From the NCBI GenBank assembly GCA_026418175.1, contig JAOABX010000016.1, positions 1 to 56,074 on the forward strand: a stretch of DNA of 56,074 nucleotides, written 5' to 3'. The notes below the pieces were generated by a model. It was not told the origin of the DNA and did no database searches. It was given only the letters and a program-made list of their open reading frames with translations. The DNA comes from Flavobacteriales bacterium (GTDB taxonomy: Bacteria; Bacteroidota; Bacteroidia; CAIKAF01). Every line of letters starts with the position of its first letter. The first letter of the stretch is position 1. This document shows positions 8,436 to 37,276 of this stretch, piece by piece. Position numbers and translations under genes: made by a program.

Positions 8436-9908
8436 TTGGGAAAAAAAGTTATCATAGCAGGAGCTGGTTTGGGTGGTTTAACAACTGCTCTTAGACTTAC
8501 CACCAAAGGATATCAGGTAGAAATCCTTGAAAAGTATCATCAGGCAGGTGGGCGGTTGAATGAATTGAAATTGGATGGTTTTACTTTTGATGTAGGGCCT
8601 TCCTTTTTCAGCATGAGTTATGAATTTGACGAATTGTTCAAATCATGCAACATGGAAAACCCACTAACCTACCAACAATTAGATCCATTGTACGTAGTAA
8701 ATTTTGCAGGCTCGGATAAACGATATCATATTTATAAGGATTTGAAGAAATTAGCTGAAGAGTTTAAGCACATTGAACCTGACTTTGAAGCAAAGGCAAG
8801 AAAATATCTCGATAATGCAAAAGCCATTTTTCATGATACGGAATACAAAGTTGTGAAGCGAAATTTTAACGGCATAACAGATTATCTGTTATCGTTAGCT
8901 TCTGTTCCTTGGAAACATGCTCCCCGGATGTTTCGTAGTATGTGGGCTGAATTGGATAAGTATTTTGTATCTCACGAGGTTAAAGTAATTTTTTCACTAG
9001 TTGCTTTTTTCTTAGGCGACACGCCTTTTGCCACACCGGCAGTTTACAAACTTTTAAATTACACAGAACTTGAACATGATGGATATTGGAATGTAAAAGG
9101 AGGCATGTATCGAATCACCGAAAGCCTTGTTAATGAATTAGAGCGTCGTGGTGTGAAAATACATTATAATACGGAGATAGTAGAAGTTGTAGCCGATCGT
9201 TCTGGTGTAAAGGCTTTTGTTGATCAGCATGGAAAAGAGTGGACAGGAGATATTTTTGTTTCTAATAGTGATGCGGCATCGTTTCGTGGTAAAATATTAA
9301 AACGAAAAAAATACTCTGAAGAGCGATTAGATAAGATGCATTGGACATTGGCCCCATTTACAATATATTTAGGAGTAAGAGGGAAAATTGATGGACTTCA
9401 ACATCATAACTATTTTTTGGGAACCAATTTTGAAGAATATGCTGACCAAATTTTTAAGTTGTCGGTTAATCCTCAGAAACCATATTACTATGTTAATGTA
9501 AGTAGTAAGTCTAACCCGGAATGTGCACCAGAAGGCTGCGAAAACTTGTTTATTCTTTGTCCGGTTCCTGACCTTCGATATAAGAAATCGTGGAAAGATG
9601 AACAGGAATTGGCAGATACAATCATTGAAGACTTAGGAAATCGTGTAGGGTATGATATCAAATCAAATATTATTGCCCAAAAAATTATGAGTCCGGAAGC
9701 TTGGAGAGACCATTTTAATTTATACAGAGGAAGTGGTTTGGGCTTAGCTCACGGATTAAATCAAATTGGGGCTTTCAGGCCTGCAAATAAAGATGAAGAA
9801 TATTCCAACCTGTATTATGTGGGAGCATCTACAATTCCCGGTACAGGCTTACCGATAGTAGTAATTAGTTCAAAACTCGTAACCGAACGAATCACCCATG
9901 AGCATTAG
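8436..9908 (+). CDS. crtI: phytoene desaturase (CrtI-type carotenoid desaturase)
   Basis: 490 residues from a TTG codon; no in-frame ATG or GTG exists before the dinucleotide-binding motif GAGLGG (residues 9-14), so TTG is the only sensible start. The N-terminus is a Rossmann FAD-binding fold, followed by GGRLNELKLDGFTFDVGPSFF. The C-terminus has LYYVGASTIPGTGLPIVVIS, the flavin-contacting end of the CrtI family. The enzyme desaturates phytoene stepwise to lycopene at the membrane. It overlaps crtB by 11 bases, which implies translational coupling. Homologous desaturases acting on other carotenoids look alike, but the crtB and crtYcd neighbours favour phytoene. Confidence 0.9.
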   Translation: MGKKVIIAGAGLGGLTTALRLTTKGYQVEILEKYHQAGGRLNELKLDGFTFDVGPSFFSMSYEFDELFKSCNMENPLTYQQLDPLYVVNFAGSDKRYHIYKDLKKLAEEFKHIEPDFEAKARKYLDNAKAIFHDTEYKVVKRNFNGITDYLLSLASVPWKHAPRMFRSMWAELDKYFVSHEVKVIFSLVAFFLGDTPFATPAVYKLLNYTELEHDGYWNVKGGMYRITESLVNELERRGVKIHYNTEIVEVVADRSGVKAFVDQHGKEWTGDIFVSNSDAASFRGKILKRKKYSEERLDKMHWTLAPFTIYLGVRGKIDGLQHHNYFLGTNFEEYADQIFKLSVNPQKPYYYVNVSSKSNPECAPEGCENLFILCPVPDLRYKKSWKDEQELADTIIEDLGNRVGYDIKSNIIAQKIMSPEAWRDHFNLYRGSGLGLAHGLNQIGAFRPANKDEEYSNLYYVGASTIPGTGLPIVVISSKLVTERITHEH

Positions 9909-10737
9909 TCTGTATCATCATACTGCGAATGAATGCAGTGAATTGGTAACACGCCGTTATAGTACTTCTTTTTCGCTGGGAATACGCATGCTTGGCAAAG
10001 CATACCGTAAGCCCATTTATGCTATTTATGGTTTTGTTCGTGTAGCTGATGAAATTGTAGACACTTTTCATGATTACGATAAAAAAACATTAATTGAGGA
10101 ATTTGAACGTGATACTTGGCTTGCTATAGAGCGGGGAATTAGTACAAACCCAATTTTGCATGCATTTGCTCGTACCATTAATAAATATCACATCGATCAT
10201 CAGCTAGTAGTGGCTTTCCTTGAAAGCATGAAAATGGACCTCTACAATAAAAAATACGATGCTGCTTTGTATGATCAATATATATACGGATCGGCAGAAG
10301 TTGTTGGGTTAATGTGTTTAAAGGTGTTTTGTGACGGTAGCCATGAAATGTATGAACGTCTGAAGTCTCATGCTAGAAGTTTGGGCGCAGCATTTCAAAA
10401 AGTAAATTTTTTAAGAGACCTGAAAGATGATTATGCAGATCGAGGACGTGTTTATTTCCCGAATGTTGACTTTTCTGCATTTGATGAACATACTAAAAAA
10501 CAAATAGAAGAAGATATTCAACGTGATTTCGACCATGCGTTGGCTGGCATTCGACAATTGCCTGAAGGTAGCAGAATCGGAGTTTATTTGGCGTATAAAT
10601 ACTATCTTAAGTTATTTAAAAAAATTAAAGCCATTCGCCCATCTCGAATTATGCAAGAACGTATAAGAATAAGTAATGTCAGAAAAATTACCATACTGGC
10701 ACGTTCGTTTGCTATGCATAAAATGAATCTTTTTTAA
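9898..10737 (+). CDS. crtB: phytoene synthase
   Basis: 279 residues of the squalene/phytoene synthase family. The two Asp-rich motifs that bind magnesium-diphosphate are present: DEIVD at 51-55 and DLKDD at 174-178, the latter within VNFLRDLKDDYADRGRVYFP. It joins two geranylgeranyl diphosphates to phytoene. The start ATG lies inside the end of crtI (11-base overlap), and the next gene follows five bases after the stop. A squalene-type product is possible in this family but unlikely in this operon. Confidence 0.9.
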   Translation: MSISLYHHTANECSELVTRRYSTSFSLGIRMLGKAYRKPIYAIYGFVRVADEIVDTFHDYDKKTLIEEFERDTWLAIERGISTNPILHAFARTINKYHIDHQLVVAFLESMKMDLYNKKYDAALYDQYIYGSAEVVGLMCLKVFCDGSHEMYERLKSHARSLGAAFQKVNFLRDLKDDYADRGRVYFPNVDFSAFDEHTKKQIEEDIQRDFDHALAGIRQLPEGSRIGVYLAYKYYLKLFKKIKAIRPSRIMQERIRISNVRKITILARSFAMHKMNLF

Positions 10738-10742
10738 TCATA

Positions 10743-11447
10743 ATGGATTCTAGGTACACATACTTTGTACTTGATTTGGCATCCATCTTCTTTCCGCTTA
10801 TTTTATCTTTCGATAAAAAAGTACATTTTTATACTCGTTGGAAATTTTTATTTCCTGCACTTTTCTTCAATGCTGTAATATTTATTGCTTGGGATGAGTT
10901 TTTTACCCGTATGGGTATATGGTATTTTAATCCTGATTATCTTTTAGGTTACTATATTGGTAGTTTACCAATTGAGGAATGGTTGTTTTTTCTAGCTATC
11001 CCATATGCTTGTATCTTTATTTATGATTGTTTGAAAGCATACTTTCCAGATTTTTTACAATCGGTTGCCCGTAGGATTACCTATCTGGCAATTCCTTTAT
11101 TTTTTATACTCGGTTTTATCTATATTCAGCATTGGTACACTGCAGTTACGTTTTTGTTGTTGGCAATAATTTTACTATTTCATATTCTAATTTATAAAAC
11201 CCGCTTTTTAGGTTATTTTTATCTAATGTGGCTTATACACCTTGTTCCTTTTTTTATAATAAATGGGTATTTAACTTCTTTGCCTGTAGTGATATATAAT
11301 AATGCTGAAAATATGGGAATAAGAATTGGTACAATACCTTTTGAGGATGCTTTTTATTCTATGTTAAAACTTATCATCATAGTTTCGCTATATGAAGGCC
11401 TTCAACTTTACAAGAATAAAAAGTTTGTTAATTCTCATAAAAACTGA
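10743..11447 (+). CDS. lycopene cyclase, CrtYcd type
   Basis: 234 residues, almost entirely membrane-embedded, with about six to seven hydrophobic segments. Two repeats of the lycopene-cyclase domain can be seen, each with an acidic signature: AWDEFFTRMGIWYF followed by LPIEEWLFF in the first half, and a matching IPFEDAFYSM in the second. This is the fused form of the heterodimeric CrtYc/CrtYd cyclase found in Bacteroidota, archaea and fungi. It closes the ends of lycopene to give beta-rings. No crtZ hydroxylase lies in the cluster, so beta-carotene is the predicted local end product. Confidence 0.85.
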   Translation: MDSRYTYFVLDLASIFFPLILSFDKKVHFYTRWKFLFPALFFNAVIFIAWDEFFTRMGIWYFNPDYLLGYYIGSLPIEEWLFFLAIPYACIFIYDCLKAYFPDFLQSVARRITYLAIPLFFILGFIYIQHWYTAVTFLLLAIILLFHILIYKTRFLGYFYLMWLIHLVPFFIINGYLTSLPVVIYNNAENMGIRIGTIPFEDAFYSMLKLIIIVSLYEGLQLYKNKKFVNSHKN

Positions 11448-20291: not shown

Positions 20292-20299
20292 TACCTTTG
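20292..20299 (+). promoter_or_regulatory. -7 element of the DinB-NRDE-ATP-grasp-LysE operon
   Basis: TACCTTTG matches TAnnTTTG, 47 bases before the first gene. No clear -33 TTTG is seen. Confidence 0.5.
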
Positions 20300-20346
20300 C
20301 ATGACTTTTAATGAATTCAATTTAGTGTGTTACTCAACAGTTTATC

Positions 20347-20859
20347 ATGAATATTTTAGCGGCAACGCATCATACGCTTAAAAATTTAACCCTTTTTCTA
20401 CAACAAATTGAAGCTGAAAACTATCGTCAGCCTTTACTTGTTTTTAATGGCTCATCTTTGGGTGAGCACACCCGGCATATTTTGGAGTTTTACCAGTGTT
20501 TGTTCAGTCAGCAAGAGCAACACTTTATCAATTACGACCGTCGTGAACGAAGCCGTTCCTTGCAGCAAGAGCCAGAAATAGCAATACATGTTATTCATCA
20601 AATTCTTAATATGCTTGATAGTGTTGATTTGAACAAGCAGCTTCAACTCGTTGTAGCCTATGATACCCAAAATGATGCTACAGACAATATGCCTACGAAT
20701 TTAAAACGGGAGATAACCTATTGTTTAGAACATGCTATTCATCATATGGCTTTAATCAAAATAGGAGTACTTACTAATTTTCCACATATTGTACTTTCAG
20801 ATGATTTTGGGATCGCACCTTCTACTATTAAACATCAACAACGCGTATGTGTACAGTAA
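20347..20859 (+). CDS. DinB-like four-helix metal-binding protein
   Basis: 170 residues. It has the DinB/YfiT helical layout with a probable His triad: His41 and nearby His44 in SLGEHTRHILEFYQ, and His129/His133 in YCLEHAIHHMALIKIG. Members of this superfamily bind Zn or Ni, and several are thiol S-transferases acting with bacillithiol, mycothiol or glutathione; others are uncharacterised. It is the first gene of a four-gene operon, and its end overlaps the next gene by 13 bases, implying coupled translation. A role in thiol chemistry is inference. Confidence 0.75.
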   Translation: MNILAATHHTLKNLTLFLQQIEAENYRQPLLVFNGSSLGEHTRHILEFYQCLFSQQEQHFINYDRRERSRSLQQEPEIAIHVIHQILNMLDSVDLNKQLQLVVAYDTQNDATDNMPTNLKREITYCLEHAIHHMALIKIGVLTNFPHIVLSDDFGIAPSTIKHQQRVCVQ

Positions 20860-21566
20860 CATATATCCCAACGCGGAATGGCTTTTTTTTAACTTCTAAC
20901 CGCGACGAATCTCCCACCCGAATAACTGAGACTCCTAAGCCGTACGAACTTTGGAATGGTTTATGCCATGTTGTATTTCCTAGGGATACGCAGGCCGGAG
21001 GATCGTGGATTGCCATGGCTTCTAATGGTCAAGTGGCTTGCTTGCTTAATGGCGCCTTTATAAAGCATGAACGGCAATTGCCTTATCGTAAAAGTCGGGG
21101 ATTAATTCTTTTGGAGTATTTTGAAAATTATTCTCCACTTCAATTTGCTGAACAAGTTGATCTTCATCAAATTGAACCATTCACCTTACTAATGATTAAT
21201 CAAGATGAATTTTGTGAACTTAGGTATGATGGAAGTGAACGGCACATCCGAATACTTGATAAAGCGCAGCCGTATATTTGGTCATCTGCTACTTTGTATA
21301 ATTTGGAGGAATCATATCAAAAAGAGCAACATTTTATGGAGTGGCTGCATTCAGAACCTTCTTTGAATGTACACTCAATAATGAAATTTCATGGATTAAA
21401 TAATTGTAAAGGCTTTTTATTGGATAGGCCTCAGGTAAAAACAGTAAGTATAACTACCGTATATCAGCAGCTTCACATACAGGATATGCATTATGCTGAT
21501 CTACAATTTGGATCTATTAATCATTTTCAACTCCCACTACAACGTGAACAAACCTCGATATCATAG
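20847..21566 (+). CDS. NRDE-family (TANGO2-like) protein
   Basis: 239 residues. The N-terminus MCTVTYIPTRNGFFLTSNRD, with Arg-Asp-Glu completing the NRDE motif, is diagnostic of the NRDE/TANGO2 family. A Cys directly after the initiator Met is also the arrangement of N-terminal-nucleophile amidohydrolases, in which Met removal exposes the Cys; the wider family is thought to share that fold. The biochemical function of TANGO2-like proteins is not settled. The gene overlaps both neighbours, so it is translated as part of the operon. Acylase or amidase activity is inference from Cys2. Confidence 0.85.
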   Translation: MCTVTYIPTRNGFFLTSNRDESPTRITETPKPYELWNGLCHVVFPRDTQAGGSWIAMASNGQVACLLNGAFIKHERQLPYRKSRGLILLEYFENYSPLQFAEQVDLHQIEPFTLLMINQDEFCELRYDGSERHIRILDKAQPYIWSSATLYNLEESYQKEQHFMEWLHSEPSLNVHSIMKFHGLNNCKGFLLDRPQVKTVSITTVYQQLHIQDMHYADLQFGSINHFQLPLQREQTSIS

Positions 21567-22605
21567 CTGGAAAGACCACCCTTTTTTTATTAAACTTCTC
21601 CACTGGGAATACTGGCCATTTGCCATTGTTTATTTTCCTGTGTTTTTTTATTATGCATGGCTGTGTATTCGTGCCAGGGCTTTGTGGTTTTTTAGCGCTG
21701 CTAACCCAGGAATTGAAACGGGAGGAATGCTGGGCGAAACTAAAACGCCAATTTTACAAATGGTTCCTGATGAATTTAAACCTAAAACCATTTTCCCGGC
21801 TGCCCAGTCAACACTACATGAAATTAAACAAATGATGGCTGATGCAGGTATTGAATATCCCATTATTGCCAAGCCTGATCGAGGAGAAAGAGGGTTATTG
21901 GTTGAACGAATTACATCCGACGAACAACTGGAAGCATACATCAAAAAGCTTTCGATACCATTTATAATTCAAGAGTTTGTTACATTTAAAGAAGAATTTG
22001 CCATCTTGTATTATATCCTTCCGGGTGAAACTATAGGACGCGTGGCTTCTGTTACCGTGAAAGAATTTTTAAAAGCTAAAGGTGATGGTAAATCAACATT
22101 AGAAGAACTAATTTTAAAAAATCAAAGAGCTATTTTACAGTGGGAAAAATTGGTTCGAAAATTTGGTCATCGTTTCAAAGAAGTGCTCGCCGAAGGCGAA
22201 GAGCTGGAATTGGAACCCATAGGGAATCATGTTCGTGGCACTAAGTTTTTAGATGGAAGTTACTTAATTGATGAACAATTAAACCAGGTTTTTCATCGTA
22301 TTACATCCCGTCTGAATGGAGTATATTATTGCCGGTATGATTTAAAATGTACTTCAATTGAAGATTTGAAACAAGGGAAAAACATACGCATTGTAGAAGT
22401 AAATGGAGTAGGGGCAGAGCCAGCACATATTTATGATCCTAACTATAAAATATTACAGGCTTGGAAAGACATTTTTCGATTGTGGGACGCAATATTTATA
22501 ATTGCACGTCATAATCATCAACAGGGAGTACCATACATGACTACCAAACAGGTTTTAAACCAGTGGAAACTGATTAGAAAATATCGTAAAATGCAGGCCG
22601 CATGA
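21544..22605 (+). CDS. membrane-anchored ATP-grasp protein, D-Ala-D-Ala ligase-like
   Basis: 353 residues from GTG 21544; an ATG at 21493 would add 17 residues and overlap the NRDE gene by 74 bases. A hydrophobic helix near the N-terminus (YWPFAIVYFPVFFYYAWLCI) suggests membrane anchoring. The rest is an ATP-grasp fold: the ATP-binding Lys in PIIAKPDRGERGLL, the hinge FIIQEFVTFKEEF, and the metal-binding end IRIVEVNGVGAEPAHIYDP (Glu and Asn). ATP-grasp enzymes join a carboxylate to an amine or thiol through an acyl phosphate. The substrate is unknown. It overlaps the LysE gene by four bases. Confidence 0.75.
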   Translation: MNKPRYHSWKDHPFFIKLLHWEYWPFAIVYFPVFFYYAWLCIRARALWFFSAANPGIETGGMLGETKTPILQMVPDEFKPKTIFPAAQSTLHEIKQMMADAGIEYPIIAKPDRGERGLLVERITSDEQLEAYIKKLSIPFIIQEFVTFKEEFAILYYILPGETIGRVASVTVKEFLKAKGDGKSTLEELILKNQRAILQWEKLVRKFGHRFKEVLAEGEELELEPIGNHVRGTKFLDGSYLIDEQLNQVFHRITSRLNGVYYCRYDLKCTSIEDLKQGKNIRIVEVNGVGAEPAHIYDPNYKILQAWKDIFRLWDAIFIIARHNHQQGVPYMTTKQVLNQWKLIRKYRKMQAA

Positions 22606-23240
22606 ACCAGTACATCAGCGAATTTTTAATCGGTTTTGGAGTGAGTTATTTATTTTCACTTCCACCCGGAATGATTAGTCTGAATGTGCTGCAAACTACT
22701 ATTCAAAAAGGCTTATTGAGTGCATTTTGGCTGGCATTAGCTGCTGTATTAATTGAGTCAGTGCAGGCTTTTGTGGGGGTTAAGTTTTCCGAATGGATCA
22801 ATCAGCATGAAAACTTAAAATTAGGCTTAGAGATGTTTGTTATTCCGGTGTTTCTTGCGTTAGGAATTGGCAATATAGTTATTGGTATAAAAACTATTCG
22901 AAATAAAGAAAAAGCATCCCTTCAGCCCAAAAAAACCATTGGTAGTTTTTGGAAAGGATTAATTGTAAGTGCATTGAATCCGGTGGCCATCCCATTTTGG
23001 GTAGTTTGGTCAACGGGTATTAGTGAAAAGAACTTGTTGGTAATGGAAACATCACACATCCTGGTGTTTGTTTTTGGCACTACGCTAGGTACCCTAGCTT
23101 GTTTAATGACGTATGCAATATTAAGTGCGGTGATTGCTAAACGAATTCATGCAGTAAAAGTGTGGATGAATATCATTGTTGGCTCATTGTTTATCGGATT
23201 AGCCATAGTTCAAACAGTAAGTGTTTTAATAAAACACTAA
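22602..23240 (+). CDS. LysE-family transporter
   Basis: 212 residues with about six membrane segments. The N-terminus carries the family's small-residue pattern (FLIGFGVSYLFSLPPGMISL NVLQ region), and the middle has VSALNPVAIPFWVVW, close to the LysE/RhtB NPK-type signature. LysE proteins export amino acids or related small metabolites. It is the last gene of the four-gene operon (ATGA overlap with the ATP-grasp gene) and overlaps the stop of the convergent FTR1 gene by four bases, with no terminator between them. Confidence 0.85.
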   Translation: MNQYISEFLIGFGVSYLFSLPPGMISLNVLQTTIQKGLLSAFWLALAAVLIESVQAFVGVKFSEWINQHENLKLGLEMFVIPVFLALGIGNIVIGIKTIRNKEKASLQPKKTIGSFWKGLIVSALNPVAIPFWVVWSTGISEKNLLVMETSHILVFVFGTTLGTLACLMTYAILSAVIAKRIHAVKVWMNIIVGSLFIGLAIVQTVSVLIKH

Positions 23241-24073
23241 ACAGTAGTTGGGGATTTTTTCTCAAATCGAATCCATAAATATCCAATAATCAATAAATAT
23301 AAAATATAGCTAATTACTTCGGTAAGGCTTGGATTACCGTTATATCCGAACAAAGCATTTAGAAAACTGCCAATACTTCCTTTTTCATGAAAGGCAGGAT
23401 AGGAACCATCTATGTTTGGTGACGGATTTATATCCCATACATGTTCTATTACAGAAGGAATAATTTCTGCTTCATTCAACTCATGTACACCGTGAGCCAT
23501 TAATCCTGCTGCAATTAGTAACAAAATAATTGTAGTGATATTAAAAAATGCTCGAAAATTTAGTTTTACAGTTCCAGCAAAAATTCCGTAACATAAGCCA
23601 AAAGCAGCTATTAATCCAAGTAATGCTCCGATTAAAACATGTAATTCAGCAGAAAGGTCAAGCCCAATAAAAAACAAAACCGTTTCTACTCCTTCTCGAA
23701 AAACGGAAAAGAAAATCAATGAAAATATACCAATCGATCGATTGCTATTTATATGCCCCTCTAACTCTGATTTTATTTGAACGGCACTGGTTTTAAAACG
23801 TACCAGCCATAAAATCATGAATGCTAGTAACACGGAGGTAGTAATCATAGATACTCCTTCAAAAATATATTCTGCAGGCCCTTCAAATTCTAGTTTAATA
23901 GCTTTGAAAATGGCAGCTAATAAAAAACTTCCAAGAATGGCAGCCAATGCACCTGCATATACCACACGGTTGTATTGCATTGAACCTGATTTTTTCAATG
24001 CCCCCAGTACAATAAATAAAATCAAAAAGGCTTCAAACCCTTCGCGAAATAAAATAATAAAACTCTCTGCCAT
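23237..24073 (-). CDS. FTR1-family high-affinity iron permease
   Basis: 278 residues, about seven membrane segments. Both iron-channel motifs of the family are present: REGFE at 10-14 and REGVE at 126-130. FTR1/EfeU permeases move ferric iron produced by oxidation of ferrous iron at the outer face of the inner membrane, so they need a redox partner (a multicopper oxidase in fungi, EfeO/EfeB in enterobacteria). Here no such oxidase is adjacent. Instead the upstream gene, 23 bases away on the same strand, encodes a membrane-anchored protein with a haem-c motif. Confidence 0.9.
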   Translation of the reverse strand: MAESFIILFREGFEAFLILFIVLGALKKSGSMQYNRVVYAGALAAILGSFLLAAIFKAIKLEFEGPAEYIFEGVSMITTSVLLAFMILWLVRFKTSAVQIKSELEGHINSNRSIGIFSLIFFSVFREGVETVLFFIGLDLSAELHVLIGALLGLIAAFGLCYGIFAGTVKLNFRAFFNITTIILLLIAAGLMAHGVHELNEAEIIPSVIEHVWDINPSPNIDGSYPAFHEKGSIGSFLNALFGYNGNPSLTEVISYILYLLIIGYLWIRFEKKSPTTV

Positions 24074-24096
24074 GAAAATATAGTTACAGTATTAAT

Positions 24097-24654
24097 TTAA
24101 TAAACCTGATTAGTGAAAGCTGGGGTATCGGGAATTTTTATTTTTATAAAGCTGTGCTTGGTAGCAGTATGGCAGCCATTGCAATTGGTAATCAGGTTGG
24201 TATATTCCAGCTCTACGTTTTTTAAATCTTTCGATTCAATGGCTTTTTCGAGCGGTTCAATGGCCGGAATTCCCCAAGTTTTCATTTGTTCGTTAATTCG
24301 TATTCCGTCTTCTACTATGTCATCTTCAGCCACTTCTTCCATAGTTTCTTCAGCTTCTTCTAAGTAAAATGAAGCTAATTCCCAGTTTTTATTTTTTGCT
24401 GCAAACCACAATTTGTTTGTGTATAGCTGAAGGCGATTCATGTAAATAGCCAATTCTACTTCTTCATCATCATCTTTTTCTTTTTCTCCAGTTTCTCCAT
24501 CTTCTTCATCTTCCTCCGAATGAGCTGTTGTAAATGTTTGCTGGTTTTTTAGTTTATCAACTTGTTTTTGCAAGCGATTCATAGATACTACCAAATACAG
24601 GCAAACAGCCAGCATGGTTATTAATCCCAGTCCGTAAACAATAGATTTATTCAT
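24097..24654 (-). CDS. membrane-anchored acidic cytochrome c'-like protein
   Basis: 185 residues. One N-terminal membrane helix (7-24) anchors the protein with its body outside. A very acidic stretch follows (47-67, almost all Glu/Asp with a few Lys), then a helical domain, and a single haem-c site CNGCH at 158-162 near the C-terminus. A helical bundle with CxxCH in the last helix is the arrangement of cytochrome c'/c556. Its position directly upstream of the FTR1 gene suggests the pair forms one iron-uptake unit, with the acidic stretch binding Fe(II) and the haem taking the electron. That mechanism is inference. Confidence 0.7.
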   Translation of the reverse strand: MNKSIVYGLGLITMLAVCLYLVVSMNRLQKQVDKLKNQQTFTTAHSEEDEEDGETGEKEKDDDEEVELAIYMNRLQLYTNKLWFAAKNKNWELASFYLEEAEETMEEVAEDDIVEDGIRINEQMKTWGIPAIEPLEKAIESKDLKNVELEYTNLITNCNGCHTATKHSFIKIKIPDTPAFTNQVY

Positions 24655-31001: not shown

Positions 31002-34000
31002 CTAATTATCTATATTCACAATCAGTCCTTCTGAATGTGATGAAAATTCTGGTGCGTACATACATTGCAGGGTGGTAATTCCGTTGGAAAATACACCCCT
31101 ATGTGTAACCCGAACGGGATATTCAAAAACATAGGTTCCTCTCGGTAAATATTCGATAAAGAAATGCGATGCTGCATCGCGTGTTGATTCATAATACCCC
31201 AATCCATCTTGCCAACGGTAACCAGAAAATACATTTTCAGGTTCAAAGGCTGATGCTCGTAAGTCTTTTAAATGAACGTATTCCAAATTTCGGTCCGATT
31301 GAATCTCTATTCTTACTTTTACCTTGTCGCCCACTTTTAATACTGTTTTTTCACTGATTGGCTCCAATATTGGGCCGCGGTCTGAGCGAATTTGCTTGAA
31401 CAATTTCTTAGTAATTTTTACATTGGTAGCAGCTGAAGTAATCTTATCTAAATCTTCAAAATATTGCCAATACAAAGCACCCCAAGCAATACCATCAGTG
31501 TTCTTCTGTACTGAAACTTCACCCATCTCTGCCCGAATAGCTTCTCTTCCCCATGACGTTTTGTAGTAGCCGGTTCCTGCTTCGGTCTTTATTTCTGTAT
31601 GTATTTTCGGATCTATGGTAATACTGCCCAGTTTTACTACTACCGGTTCGGTATCCTCTAGCCAGGTTATATTCTGCATCAGTAATGCATAGCAAGCATC
31701 TGCTGTAGCTTTAGTGGTTTTCCAGTCGTTGGTTTGTTTATTTTTCAATAGCCACAATTGCATATCTTCTATTGCTTTTTTATCGGACATAACTTCACTA
31801 AAAGCTTCAATCATTAATGCCTGAGTTTCAATGGGTGCGTCATACCAGAAGTAAGAATTATTTTGTTTCCAATACATTCCCATTTCTTCGTTTCGAATAG
31901 CATTTTCACTCAAAGATCGAATGATTTGCTGAGCCATATTGGTTTCATTGGCTCGTTGCATTATCAATGCAATCATTCCTCGCATCATCATGCTTTCTGT
32001 ATTCCAGTATGCTTTGGCCTGATTGAAATAAAAATTATATGCTTCCGTATATTGCTTATCTAGTTCCTTTTCTGGAAAGTAGCTTCTTGCAAATAAATAT
32101 TGAATTTGGGTTGCTCCAATTTGTTTTTTTGTAAGGTCAACTTTGTATTTCTTTAACTGATGATAATCTTCCTGCATACGTTCATCCAGGTAATACAATG
32201 CTTTTGAAATCATATCACCTACTTTACCGGTATGATCTTGCACACCAAGTTTTTTCAACCTTCCAAAACCTGTTACAATGTATTGAGTGATAAAACGGTT
32301 ATCTGGCCCGCCTGCAAACCAAGGCCAACCACCATTTGATACTTGCAGCTTTTCCAATTTCATCAGAGTTGATGCTGTTTCATTTTTCATTCGATTTAAA
32401 TCAAATAAAAGCGCTATACGTTGTTTTCGTTCTGTTTCGTTTTTAGCATCCATCACCCAAGGAGTTTCTTGTAGAATCACTTCTTTTAACTCCTGATTTT
32501 TTTCAAGGTTGGAAAGTAAAGTGCCGGGTTGCTGAGTTTTCCACACATCAAAAACTTTTTTAATGCGAGGATTGGAATTAGCAATATGTGAAGCCAGTGC
32601 GTTTGCATACAACCGATTAAATGTTTGTTCACTGCATTCATGTGGATATTCCATCATGTAAGGCAGTGCCTGTATTGCATACCAGGCAGGTTGAGAAGTA
32701 AATTCCAGTGTAAGCCGGTGATGGCGGATAGTTGAAGAAATTTCGCTCTGACGTAACTTTTCAAGTCTAAATGTACGCGTTGCTTTTCCACGTATAGGTA
32801 AGGGTAATGATTCAGTAACAAGAATACGGTTTGATAATACAGGAATTGACATTTCTTCTCCATCTGAATGTACTCCTCCATCAGCTACGATTTGGTAGGT
32901 AATGGCATAAACCTGTTGTGGTATTTCAATTTTCCACACAAACATTTCACTTTTACCTTTAGCAATAGTTTTTGTAATAACAGGATTCGTTAACTTACAT
33001 GAGAGGGCAATGTCTTTTTGCTGAATGGCATCGGTTAGAGAAAGCGTTACTTTCACAGGTAAGTCCTGGTTACTTAGATTGGTTACTTTGGTTGAGAAAT
33101 ATAGTATATCACCTTCACGGAAAAAACGAGGTGCATACGAATTTACCATCAGTTGCTTTTTAGTAACTACCTCTTCGGTAAGCATTCCGAATTTTAAATC
33201 TCGAGTATGGGCCATTGCTTGAAAGTTCCATCGTGTAATGGATTCCGGCATACGAAACGAAAAGACTACTTCACCTTGTTCGTTGGTTTGTAAGTGCGGA
33301 TAAAAAAAGGCGGTTTCAGCAAAATTAGAACGTGTCTGTAAAGAATTATTAATTCTTTTTTCTAAGTCAGTTTGTTCCTCCTTTCCTTTTTGATTTTGCT
33401 CTTCATCATTAATGCTTGTATTCCCGGTAATTCTGGTTTCATTACGATGATCTTCGTTTTTATCTTTCTTTCGGGGTGATGTAGTTTCTTTTTCTTCAAA
33501 AATTGGCGCATCCATTGTCATAGTTTCTAAAGCATATCCAGCATATGAACCATTGCGGTACATCCATACGGAATAGGCCAACATATTACATCCAAAATTG
33601 GCCATGTTTTGGTATTGGGGAAACTTCCATTCTGTATATGTAGTCCATGATGGTGCGTACAACGAAGATTTGCTAAGATGCAGATGATCAGATGATGCCC
33701 ACTGACGCATGCTGTAACCGTAGGTATAAGGATTAAACCACCATTTGGAAGGGCGAAATGCATCCAAGCTGGCATCATACATGCTTACTAATATCTCTGC
33801 AGTAGTGACTTGGTTCCCTTGATCTTTTACAGTTATTTTCCACTCTTCTTCAACTCCAGGTAACAATTCATTTCTAAAAGTAGCAAACTTCAGTTTTAAA
33901 TCTTTATTTGAATATGGAACTTCTATGTAATGTTGAAATGTATATGCTCTGTTTTCTATGATGGCTGTAAAATGTACATCAAAACCACCCCGATGTATTT

Positions 34001-37000
34001 CTTTCACAGGGATTCGAATCAATTTTTGTGTGTTGCTTAACATAATGATTTGTTTGCTCACCATTTGTCCCCGATGTTCAATTTCCATTCGTATCTCTAA
34101 TTGCTTGGCTGCTGTAGAAATTAAAAACAGGGCTTCCTCTCCTGGCTCTGCAGAAGTTTTTATTGGAATGTAGGATATAAATTCTTTGGCAAAAGGTTTA
34201 GATTCATGCAAATCGTACATTTTTACAATCTGTCGATAAGAGGCGGTTTCTCCATATCCATCCAACGTTTTAGCTTCAATAAGGTAAACACCCTGTTTTA
34301 ATGAAAGATTTGCAGGCTTTAATGTATTATTCGATTTGTTATTGAAAGTTGTATTTAAGATGACCTCGCCTCTTTTCCAGTTTTCCTCCAAATGCTCATT
34401 AGCAAATGGTAAATGTGGAAAAGCTTGATGATATTCTGATTCATTCAACACTGGTTCATCTACTCTTCCCCAACCTTTTTGTTTAAATAAGCGGGATGGC
34501 TCTTCCAAACGAGTTATGGTTAGTTGTCCACTGTTTTCTGCTGGATAATTTTCCATGTTAAGAACTTCCAGCTTATAAAGAGAAGTATCTTTTACATTCA
34601 AAACATTTGGAATATTTCCCCTCACTTGAATGGAAGCGTATCCCACCTGAACGGTTCGAGTTGCAGTACGTGTTTCACCGTTTATATCAGTAACATTGAT
34701 TTCGATGGTATAGTAAAATGTTGGCTCCCACTTTTTGCTGATACTTCTGTCAGGAATGGCTTCAAATGTTACACTGAATGCTCCATTTTCATCGGTTATT
34801 GTGCTTCCGCCGGCAATTTCCATACGTGGAGAATCTGAAATTAATCCCCCACGCCAATAATAAAACCAAGGTGGAAACATGGCATTGCGATAAATTCGGT
34901 AAGAAACCTGTGCTCCATCAACTGCAAAGCCGCTGAGTGCTTTAGCGGAACCACTAACAGTTACTTGATCGCCTAACCGAAATTCATTGCGAATGGTATC
35001 AAACAGAATTTCAAATTTGGGTCGTTTGTATTCTTCTACTGAAAAACTTATAGTTGAAATTTCATTTCCTAAAGTCCATTCACCGGTAAGCAAATTCATT
35101 GGAAGTTCAAATGACCCTGAAAAAGTTCCAAATTCATTTGAGGTTACGTTTAGTTTGGAGACTTCCTGATAGTTGGCATCAAAAAGTTTGATGGTGGTTT
35201 TATAATTTGTAACAATTTTAGATTCGGTTCCTTTCATAAAATTACCCCGATTAATAACGATGCCTTTGAAATGCACCGTTTGCCCTGGGCGAAAAATGGA
35301 TCTATCTAAGAAATAATGAATGCTAATCCCTTTCTCATCATAGTATTCATACCAGTCTTTATATTGATACAACGAGCTTGGTGAAACATAACGATCTTTG
35401 CCTTTGCGTAATTCAATGCGGAAATTATTATAGTAGTCTTTAGTGATAAATGGTACTCGCAATTCTCCTTGCTTATTCGTTTTAAAAGTTCGGATAAGTT
35501 GAGATTCATAACGGCGATTGATATAATTATACTGTTCTTGGTATAATCGTACTTCAACATCCTGAGCAGGATGTCCACTTTCTCGTTCGGCAACCACGAT
35601 GGTATTTTCTCTGTAATTATTTTCCGGACGAGAAAGGTGCATTAAATTGGTAACCCAGAAATCAGATAGTGCGATAGCTGAACTCGGATAATCAAACGAA
35701 GGTTTATCAGAAGCAAGCAGTACATAAAAACCTAGTTCACGGGGCGGTAAAGCAATTTCGGTAGTATGATTTTGTAAATCTGCCGAAGATTTAAGAGTCT
35801 GCTGCCATGTTGCCAGCGGTTGTTGCTTTCTTAAATATATCAGCAAACTATCAAAATGATTGTATTTATAGCGTTTTTCCAAATCTACCCAAGCATCATG
35901 ATTGATGGAGTATAATCTTAGGTGAACTTCCTGAAGATTTCTATAGCGAAGATGTACCGGGATAAATTTTCCCGGAAGGTTGCCGTGTTCTGTTGTAATT
36001 TCTAAAGTGGGCAATAGTATTTGTTCTTTTAAAGCACGAGCATTATTGGCTCCCAGTGTTTTAGGGAATCGTTGAATGACTTCTTCACATATCTGCAATG
36101 CTTTTAGTATATCCATTCGATAACGATGAGTTTGTTCATTAAATGCATCATAAGTTTCGCCTAGTTTTTTATATGTGCTTGCAAGTTCTACCAATACTTC
36201 GGCTGTTACATCGTTAGTAATGTATTTTTTTTGTAGTGCATCCAGTGCCTGGATATATAAGCTGTCTTTATTTTCAATGGTGCTATGGTTGTAAACAAAT
36301 TTCAGGCGATTTAAATCAGCATCTACCAACGCATCCCATTGCTTATTGAAAACATGAAATTCAAGTAATTTTTGATAAATTAAGATGGCCTGATATTGAT
36401 TATTTAATGTATCGGTTGTTGGTATATTATATTTTGAAAATTGTTCAGCTGGCATAAAAAATTCTGACCGGTTCATTTCAAAACTATTTGCTGGTTGGGT
36501 TAATCCTGTTTCAGCATGTTGAAATATTTCGATAGCTTTGTAAGCAAGTATATCATACAAGGTAGGCCGGCGTGATTTTAATGAATCATTTCCTTCTAAA
36601 ATTGCGATGTATTTATCTGTTGTAATTTTTTGCAAATTTTCTGGTTGAGACAGCGATTGGCAAAATGAATAAATGGTTTCTGAAAATAGGCGGTTCAAAT
36701 CCCAGGTAAGAATATCATCATTGCTTGCATCGGTTATAGGAGTTCTATTGTAAAATTGCCACCGATAGTTTTGATAATAATTCCACAGCAAATTGCCACG
36801 AAGGCTATATAAGACTTGTTTATAGGGCGAAGGAGCTTGCCTAATTTCTTGCTGTAATAAATTATATGAAACTTTAAAAGCATCCTCATCCAGTGTTTCA
36901 CTATACTTCATTAAATAAATTAGCGATTTCACCAACTGTGGATAGTTATTGTCTTTTTTTGCCAATTTTCGGATTGATTCTACTTCTTTTTTTGATGATT

Positions 37001-37169
37001 CAGTCAATCCAAGTTTTTCAAGCGAATCTACCTTGGCCCAATATTTTTCATACGAATCATAAGGACGAAACGGTTTTTGGGGTATAATGATGGTGAAAGT
37101 GGCAAATAGGGCCAAACTGCTAAACAAGGCAATAAAACCAGTAGCTCGAAGAAATATTCGGTTTTTCAT
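31002..37169 (-). CDS. very large alpha-2-macroglobulin-like protein with intact thioester motif
   Basis: 2055 residues. The start was set at MKNRIFLRATGF, which opens a signal/anchor sequence; a -7-like element lies upstream of it and downstream of the alternative start at 37244. The N-terminal 400 residues are helical and TPR-like. Macroglobulin domains follow, including the MG2-type FLDRSIFRPGQTVHFKGIVI. A highly charged stretch (about 1220-1280) lies where a bait region would be, just before the A2M domain (ETAFFYPHLQTNEQGEVVFS; MPESITRWNF). The thioester motif CSEQ has Cys at about 1512 in EYPHECSEQTFNR, followed by a terpenoid-cyclase-like helical domain and a receptor-type beta domain. 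Bacterial homologues trap proteases in the periplasm. The usual pbpC partner is not adjacent. Confidence 0.9.
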   Translation of the reverse strand: MKNRIFLRATGFIALFSSLALFATFTIIIPQKPFRPYDSYEKYWAKVDSLEKLGLTESSKKEVESIRKLAKKDNNYPQLVKSLIYLMKYSETLDEDAFKVSYNLLQQEIRQAPSPYKQVLYSLRGNLLWNYYQNYRWQFYNRTPITDASNDDILTWDLNRLFSETIYSFCQSLSQPENLQKITTDKYIAILEGNDSLKSRRPTLYDILAYKAIEIFQHAETGLTQPANSFEMNRSEFFMPAEQFSKYNIPTTDTLNNQYQAILIYQKLLEFHVFNKQWDALVDADLNRLKFVYNHSTIENKDSLYIQALDALQKKYITNDVTAEVLVELASTYKKLGETYDAFNEQTHRYRMDILKALQICEEVIQRFPKTLGANNARALKEQILLPTLEITTEHGNLPGKFIPVHLRYRNLQEVHLRLYSINHDAWVDLEKRYKYNHFDSLLIYLRKQQPLATWQQTLKSSADLQNHTTEIALPPRELGFYVLLASDKPSFDYPSSAIALSDFWVTNLMHLSRPENNYRENTIVVAERESGHPAQDVEVRLYQEQYNYINRRYESQLIRTFKTNKQGELRVPFITKDYYNNFRIELRKGKDRYVSPSSLYQYKDWYEYYDEKGISIHYFLDRSIFRPGQTVHFKGIVINRGNFMKGTESKIVTNYKTTIKLFDANYQEVSKLNVTSNEFGTFSGSFELPMNLLTGEWTLGNEISTISFSVEEYKRPKFEILFDTIRNEFRLGDQVTVSGSAKALSGFAVDGAQVSYRIYRNAMFPPWFYYWRGGLISDSPRMEIAGGSTITDENGAFSVTFEAIPDRSISKKWEPTFYYTIEINVTDINGETRTATRTVQVGYASIQVRGNIPNVLNVKDTSLYKLEVLNMENYPAENSGQLTITRLEEPSRLFKQKGWGRVDEPVLNESEYHQAFPHLPFANEHLEENWKRGEVILNTTFNNKSNNTLKPANLSLKQGVYLIEAKTLDGYGETASYRQIVKMYDLHESKPFAKEFISYIPIKTSAEPGEEALFLISTAAKQLEIRMEIEHRGQMVSKQIIMLSNTQKLIRIPVKEIHRGGFDVHFTAIIENRAYTFQHYIEVPYSNKDLKLKFATFRNELLPGVEEEWKITVKDQGNQVTTAEILVSMYDASLDAFRPSKWWFNPYTYGYSMRQWASSDHLHLSKSSLYAPSWTTYTEWKFPQYQNMANFGCNMLAYSVWMYRNGSYAGYALETMTMDAPIFEEKETTSPRKKDKNEDHRNETRITGNTSINDEEQNQKGKEEQTDLEKRINNSLQTRSNFAETAFFYPHLQTNEQGEVVFSFRMPESITRWNFQAMAHTRDLKFGMLTEEVVTKKQLMVNSYAPRFFREGDILYFSTKVTNLSNQDLPVKVTLSLTDAIQQKDIALSCKLTNPVITKTIAKGKSEMFVWKIEIPQQVYAITYQIVADGGVHSDGEEMSIPVLSNRILVTESLPLPIRGKATRTFRLEKLRQSEISSTIRHHRLTLEFTSQPAWYAIQALPYMMEYPHECSEQTFNRLYANALASHIANSNPRIKKVFDVWKTQQPGTLLSNLEKNQELKEVILQETPWVMDAKNETERKQRIALLFDLNRMKNETASTLMKLEKLQVSNGGWPWFAGGPDNRFITQYIVTGFGRLKKLGVQDHTGKVGDMISKALYYLDERMQEDYHQLKKYKVDLTKKQIGATQIQYLFARSYFPEKELDKQYTEAYNFYFNQAKAYWNTESMMMRGMIALIMQRANETNMAQQIIRSLSENAIRNEEMGMYWKQNNSYFWYDAPIETQALMIEAFSEVMSDKKAIEDMQLWLLKNKQTNDWKTTKATADACYALLMQNITWLEDTEPVVVKLGSITIDPKIHTEIKTEAGTGYYKTSWGREAIRAEMGEVSVQKNTDGIAWGALYWQYFEDLDKITSAATNVKITKKLFKQIRSDRGPILEPISEKTVLKVGDKVKVRIEIQSDRNLEYVHLKDLRASAFEPENVFSGYRWQDGLGYYESTRDAASHFFIEYLPRGTYVFEYPVRVTHRGVFSNGITTLQCMYAPEFSSHSEGLIVNIDN

Positions 37170-37221
37170 GTAAGTAATTTTGTGATTATACACGCCGGAA
37201 ATAATCCGGTTCATTCTTCTG

Positions 37222-37229
37222 TAAAAGTA
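37222..37229 (-). promoter_or_regulatory. -7-like element of the macroglobulin gene
   Basis: On the minus strand this reads TACTTTTA, one base off TAnnTTTG. It lies 53 bases before the chosen start and inside the reading frame of the longer alternative, which supports the shorter protein. Confidence 0.35.
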
Positions 37230-37276
37230 ATTTAATCTCGACATTTCGCTGTATATTCGAATAAAAATTAACGATT

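Follow-up and report, generated by a model that had tools for sequence, protein, structure and literature searches.

Ornithine and glycine lipids are made by acyltransferase routes (PMC11631085), and the known pathways to them (OlsBA, OlsF and GlsAB) involve no ATP-grasp enzyme, DinB or NRDE protein or exporter. A 2023 review (PMC10191378) described the pathway to the glycine-serine (Gly-Ser) lipids of Bacteroidota as unknown, and so did a study of Chitinophaga, in which Gly-Ser and Gly-Ser-ornithine (Gly-Ser-Orn) lipids are core metabolites (PMC8433624). In Gly-Ser dipeptide lipids (flavolipin and lipid 430/654) and Gly-Ser-Orn lipids, the second amino acid is amide-linked to the carboxylate of an acyl-amino-acid. 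TANGO2 deficiency causes serious disease in humans. What proteins of this family do at the molecular level is debated; the human one binds acyl-CoA via NRDE (PMC11867700). Here we describe a module of four overlapping genes in a Flavobacteriales bacterium, encoding a DinB-like protein, an NRDE/TANGO2 protein, a membrane-anchored ATP-grasp ligase and a LysE-family exporter. The module lies on contig JAOABX010000016.1, whose positions 1 to 56,074 constitute the window analysed. A literature search restricted to open-licence papers found no description of the set of DinB, NRDE and ATP-grasp genes, and an earlier report elsewhere is possible.

The genome (G000) is 2.68 Mb in size and 99.7% complete, and an asparaginyl-tRNA synthetase (AsnRS) gene is located upstream of the module. 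The features of the locus, with gene limits from the list of open reading frames, are as follows.

20292–20299, plus strand: candidate −7 element TACCTTTG, which fits the Bacteroidota −7 consensus TANNTTTG
20347–20859, plus strand: DinB-like gene, 170 amino acids
20847–20859, plus strand: dinB/nrde overlap of 13 nucleotides (nt), ATGTGTACAGTAA, read in two frames as ...C-V-Q-stop and M-C-T-V-
20847–21566, plus strand: NRDE/TANGO2 gene, 239 amino acids
21544–22605, plus strand: membrane-anchored ATP-grasp ligase gene, 353 amino acids from a GTG start
22602–23240, plus strand: LysE-family exporter gene, 212 amino acids

All four genes were present as the initial annotation had reported, and its successive overlaps of 13, about 23 and 4 bases were measured as 13, 23 and 4 nt. 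The GTG start of the ATP-grasp gene is found at the same position and with the same codon in two same-genus homologues (L037 and L038), and the 23-nt overlap is therefore favoured over the longer ATG alternative.

To relate the module to the rest of the phylum, we counted the gene families in 395 Bacteroidota genomes, NRDE being counted by strong matches. The ATP-grasp family was present in 72 genomes, NRDE in 38 and DinB in 63. ATP-grasp and DinB genes occurred together in 60 genomes (11.5 expected) and lay within 5 kb of each other in 51, while ATP-grasp and NRDE genes occurred together in 34 (6.9 expected) and were linked in 28; as the sampled genomes are related, the hypergeometric p-values for these pairs are not literal. 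Even so, presence of one gene clearly goes with presence of the other, and the linkage of the ATP-grasp gene extends to at least seven families. Homologues of the ATP-grasp protein were present in 18 of 60 relatives and in 16 named genomes, most of them with NRDE and DinB genes adjoining; Sediminibacterium goheungense DSM 28323 and Galbibacter orientalis DSM 19592 (homologues L030 and L032) are among the carriers of the operon, and one same-genus record contains an ATP-grasp protein that is 90% identical. The 13-nt DinB/NRDE overlap was identical in 26 of the 28 linked Bacteroidota genomes and was found again in two Salinivibrio species, and NRDE and ATP-grasp form a single open frame in three genomes (L033, L062 and L064). 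Thus the co-occurrence that the initial annotation had proposed to look for is real, and the arrangement, which occurs in two phyla, is not peculiar to this genome; phylum-wide linkage and recurrence in other lineages rule out chance adjacency. Taken together, the linkage, the conserved overlap and the gene fusions indicate that the four genes almost certainly form a conserved functional unit. Comparison with a same-genus genome gave ratios of nonsynonymous to synonymous substitution rates (dN/dS) of ~0.10 for DinB, ~0.12 for NRDE and ~0.05 for ATP-grasp, showing that these genes are under purifying selection. The ratios cover three genes, since dS was saturated in the comparison of LysE with G002.

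The composition of the module varies among relatives. Within 6 kb of the ATP-grasp gene in 58 Bacteroidia loci, a sample biased by having been picked by ATP-grasp homology, the neighbours were NRDE (46 loci), DinB (42), LysE (30), YHS (25), DoxX (23) and CRP (12), and none of the 58 had an OlsB-type gene in this range. Of the three partners in the module, LysE is the least constant. Two genomes of the same genus (G002 and G003, with loci L037 and L038) lack DinB and NRDE genome-wide and keep ATP-grasp and LysE behind AsnRS, a pattern of loss and retention that divides the module into two separable halves. Genes for two other proteins, one with a YHS domain (a (seleno)protein) and the other a DoxX-like membrane protein, are found repeatedly on either side of the module (L028, L066, L081, L082 and L093) across Flavobacteriaceae, Chitinophagaceae and Vibrio. 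At L065 (6536–10175), the order ATPgrasp-NRDE-ATPgrasp-LysE places a single NRDE gene between two diverged ATP-grasp genes. The second of these ATP-grasps belongs to a separate subclade that also holds the fusion of L063, in which LysE is joined to a second ATP-grasp.

In a second Bacteroidota class, the ATP-grasp makes up the C-terminal portion of an α/β-hydrolase::VTT::ATP-grasp protein of ~820–900 amino acids, whose gene adjoins one for an OlsB-type GNAT and usually also genes for DinB and a PlsC-type acyltransferase. This PF13444 OlsB-type GNAT lies within ~4 kb of the ATP-grasp in 30 of 31 second-class genomes. The Pseudomonadota loci, which come from plasmid records, display several arrangements. 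The gene order is SDR-VTT-ATPgrasp-DinB-NRDE in Salinivibrio and VTT-ATPgrasp-DinB-NRDE-YHS-DoxX-OlsF-like in Vibrio sp. THAF191d; Photobacterium has the Vibrio order with an apparently shifted OlsF-like frame. Azospirillum contains a VTT::ATP-grasp fusion, Paracoccus the order ATP-grasp, α/β-hydrolase, VTT, and Variovorax the order iron-redox-enzyme gene, ATP-grasp, OlsB-like. In a tree of 81 ATP-grasps, the sequences of Pseudomonadota and the second class clustered together with support of 99/95 and were separate from those of Bacteroidia. OlsB/OlsA- or OlsF-type genes of ornithine and glycine lipid synthesis adjoin the same ATP-grasp in other lineages, in neighbourhoods that also carry DinB and, in Vibrionaceae, NRDE. 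The Vibrionaceae, in which a VTT (DedA-type) protein replaces LysE, carry both the accessory genes of Bacteroidia (DinB, NRDE, YHS and DoxX) and the lipid acyltransferase. NRDE and the α/β-hydrolase, and likewise LysE and VTT, appear to be alternative, non-homologous parts around one ligase, and these arrangements support a logic of ligase, hydrolase-fold protein and transporter that recurs across lineages. At two loci (L095, 5079–8011, and L104, 6104–9884), the ATP-grasp family adjoins a haem-oxygenase-like iron enzyme (PF14518), with the addition of a methyltransferase gene in Komagataeibacter or the OlsB-like gene in Variovorax; these loci look like another lipid-type cluster.

The ATP-grasp protein matched curated sequence models weakly and below all their cut-offs (RimK, 0.006). 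Some homologues are labelled D-alanine--D-alanine ligase, and no Ddl model came near its cut-off for the window protein. Structure prediction yielded a model with a predicted local distance difference test score (pLDDT) of 90.5, for which Foldseek returned cyanophycin synthetase (E 3.6e-10) and also GshF and Ddl. The predicted fold is thus that of carboxylate-amine ligases resembling peptide ligases. The catalytic Lys110 and the Mg-binding Asp266, Glu285 and Asn287 were invariant in a 15-row alignment and in all 30 sequences of a wider one. These residues, whose loss would have spoken against the initial annotation, rule out a non-functional ATP-grasp. The window protein shares the ATP-grasp fold and the catalytic residues with cyanophycin synthetase, GshF and Ddl, but is only ~9–20% identical to them in fold alignments and has an additional hydrophobic N-terminal membrane helix (approximately residues 25–44, inside WEYWPFAIVYFPVFFYYAW) that is conserved across the family.

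The NRDE protein matched Pfam TANGO2 (E 2.8e-17, 64.1 bits; gathering score 22.6). Its motif consists of Asn18, Arg19, Asp20 and Glu21, the last three of which were invariant in the alignment, and Cys2, the residue exposed by removal of the initiator Met, was conserved in 22 of 22 sequences. The structure model (pLDDT 89.7) was closest among PDB folds to human TANGO2 (8sv7/9bwa), followed by acyl-CoA:isopenicillin N acyltransferase and bile salt hydrolases, all of which have a fold of the N-terminal nucleophile (Ntn) hydrolase type. The two structure predictions that the initial annotation had suggested therefore recovered a TANGO2 fold and an ATP-grasp fold. The NRDE protein resembles the TANGO2/NRDE family in its Pfam match, fold and motif. 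It differs in sequence (~14% identical to human TANGO2 when the folds are aligned) and in being encoded in an operon with the ATP-grasp or fused to it. It may be an amidase or an acyl-binding partner, and it could bind its substrate rather than cut it.

The DinB-like protein had no match in a Pfam scan. A homologue from the second Bacteroidota class (L053), tied to the window family by profile search (E ~1e-35), was recognised as DinB with 26.1 bits against a cut-off of 23. His129, His132 and His133 were conserved in 20 of 20 aligned sequences and His41 and His44 in 19 of 20, which makes these histidines a candidate metal site. A search of solved structures with the DinB alignment gave no match by sequence to any solved DinB. 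The C-terminal Cys-x-Gln tail is ruled out as a functional element, as it is the nrde start ATGTGYACAGTAA read in the other frame; DinB proteins without an NRDE gene behind them have no such tail. The exporter matched Pfam LysE (E 1.9e-16, 60.6 bits; gathering score 25.6).

We tentatively favour the possibility that acylated amino acids are what the module tailors, with aminolipids or a related lipid carboxylate as the likeliest substrates. The observations behind this reading are that the genes are co-inherited, linked and fused, that their products have the folds and conserved residues described above, and that in several relatives the ATP-grasp gene lies next to one for an OlsB/OlsF-type N-acyltransferase; the substrate, the chemistry and sequence of the steps, and the direction of transport are inferred. 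Anchored at the membrane through its N-terminal helix, the ATP-grasp would spend ATP on converting the free carboxylate of an acyl-amino-acid into an acyl phosphate and would then couple an amine or a second amino acid to it through an amide bond. The NRDE/TANGO2 protein would bind the acylated product or substrate within the Ntn-hydrolase fold, where it would present the acyl group or, in turnover or editing, cut amide or thioester bonds through Cys2. The DinB-like metal protein may catalyse another reaction on this molecule, perhaps a thiol- or metal-dependent one, and LysE, or VTT in relatives, would carry the product out of the cell or across the membrane.

Several observations weigh against a lipid substrate. 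No PF13444 N-acyltransferase was found in the window genome, and such an enzyme was present in 24 of 41 sampled ATP-grasp-bearing Bacteroidia without being adjacent to the ATP-grasp in any; this absence of linkage lowers the lipid reading for the window genome. The OlsF-like protein of Vibrio and the OlsB-like protein of Variovorax scored below the NCBIfam equivalog cut-offs, and the Ols-linked ATP-grasps belong to a clade apart from Bacteroidia, so that the substrate may have changed between the two groups. LysE proteins, moreover, classically export amino acids and not lipids. Given this distribution of PF13444, another acylated substrate or a free one may serve Bacteroidia, and we therefore hold the tailoring of acylated amino acids as a tentative reading beside a rather doubtful one in which the substrate is free. 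In the latter, which was the form proposed by the initial annotation, the ATP-grasp forms an amide on a free peptide-like metabolite, the NRDE protein hydrolyses it and LysE exports the amino-acid-like product. Such a synthetase/amidase cycle is consistent with the NRDE::ATP-grasp fusions, with folds like those of cyanophycin synthetase, GshF and Ddl on the one side and bile salt hydrolases on the other, with the identity of the exporter and with the lack of an OlsB-type gene in the window genome, and it has a functional analogue in glutathionylspermidine synthetase/amidase, which likewise combines a ligase with an amidase. The conserved membrane anchor of the ATP-grasp, the replacement of LysE by VTT and the adjacency of OlsB/OlsF genes in relatives argue against it. 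The proposal that the four proteins act on one metabolite is thus upheld in part: a functional unit, intact ligase residues and the ligase, hydrolase-fold and transporter logic agree with it, but the gene neighbourhoods in relatives suggest that the substrate is an acylated amino acid or a lipid rather than a free small molecule.

Some enzymes of the DinB superfamily are thiol S-transferases, and a detoxification system for low-molecular-weight thiols or their conjugates, similar to those of mycothiol or bacillithiol, would give each protein a role: the ATP-grasp would make or extend a peptide-like cofactor, DinB would transfer it to electrophiles, the NRDE protein would be the conjugate amidase and LysE would export the cleaved conjugate. 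We consider this unlikely. It is analogous in function to mycothiol detoxification, in which a ligase and a DinB-type S-transferase are paired with an amidase and export, and the neighbours in relatives include redox-type genes (YHS, DoxX, DM13 and AhpC/TSA) and CRP regulators. However, no homologues of the biosynthetic genes of the mycothiol or glutathionylspermidine systems are linked to the module, and the window DinB family lacks a sequence match to any solved DinB. The window genome does contain bshC, a gene for bacillithiol, but bshC is nearly universal in the class (79 of 80 genomes), whether or not the module is there; it therefore does not track the module and is uninformative. Thiol chemistry also leaves the membrane anchor, the VTT fusions and the OlsB/OlsF neighbours unexplained. 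A role in haem or iron handling, in which the NRDE protein would chaperone haem in the manner proposed for TANGO2/HRG-9, is very unlikely. The published haem role of TANGO2 homologues, the HemJ-like gene beside the ATP-grasp in L047, and the FTR1-type iron permease and cytochrome c'-like genes adjoining the module in the window would fit it, but this last pair is encoded on the other strand and was not seen beside the module in relatives, and neither the ATP-grasp ligase nor the NRDE::ATP-grasp fusion is accounted for.

Within the tailoring of acylated amino acids, a more specific and less probable proposal is that Bacteroidota and Pseudomonadota use the module, as an undescribed pathway, to make lipids capped with a dipeptide or an amine. 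The ATP-grasp would be the missing lipid-carboxylate:amine ligase, for example for flavolipin-like Gly-Ser lipids, whose amide link is of a kind that a membrane-bound ATP-grasp could form; the TANGO2-type protein and DinB would be processing partners, and LysE or VTT an exporter or flippase. For Gly-Ser lipids the ATP-grasp is purely a candidate, as no producer with known lipids could be matched to the module. The Gly-Ser lipids of Bacteroidota are immune-active, and the ligase family is a concrete candidate for this type of step in the pathway to them. In this operon, genes for a TANGO2-fold protein, an ATP-dependent ligase, a DinB metal-type protein and a transporter stand together, and in relatives aminolipid acyltransferase genes join them, which brings the function of the TANGO2 family within reach of simple genetic and lipidomic tests. 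If correct, a pathway to capped lipids would provide a bacterial setting for working out the role of the TANGO2 family.

The −7 element named in the initial annotation does match the consensus at TACCTTTG, but octamers of the form TANNTTTG are common in the window (63 copies, with 87 expected by shuffling), and the match is therefore weak evidence of a promoter. Downstream, the FTR1-type permease and cytochrome c'-like genes occupy 23237–24654 on the opposite strand, convergent with the module; this orientation and their absence beside the module in relatives rule them out as members. Elsewhere in the window, a carotenoid cluster (amine oxidase/CrtI-like, phytoene synthase and lycopene cyclase) is located at 8436–11444, and a very large bacterial alpha-2-macroglobulin (2080 amino acids) is encoded at 31002–37244.

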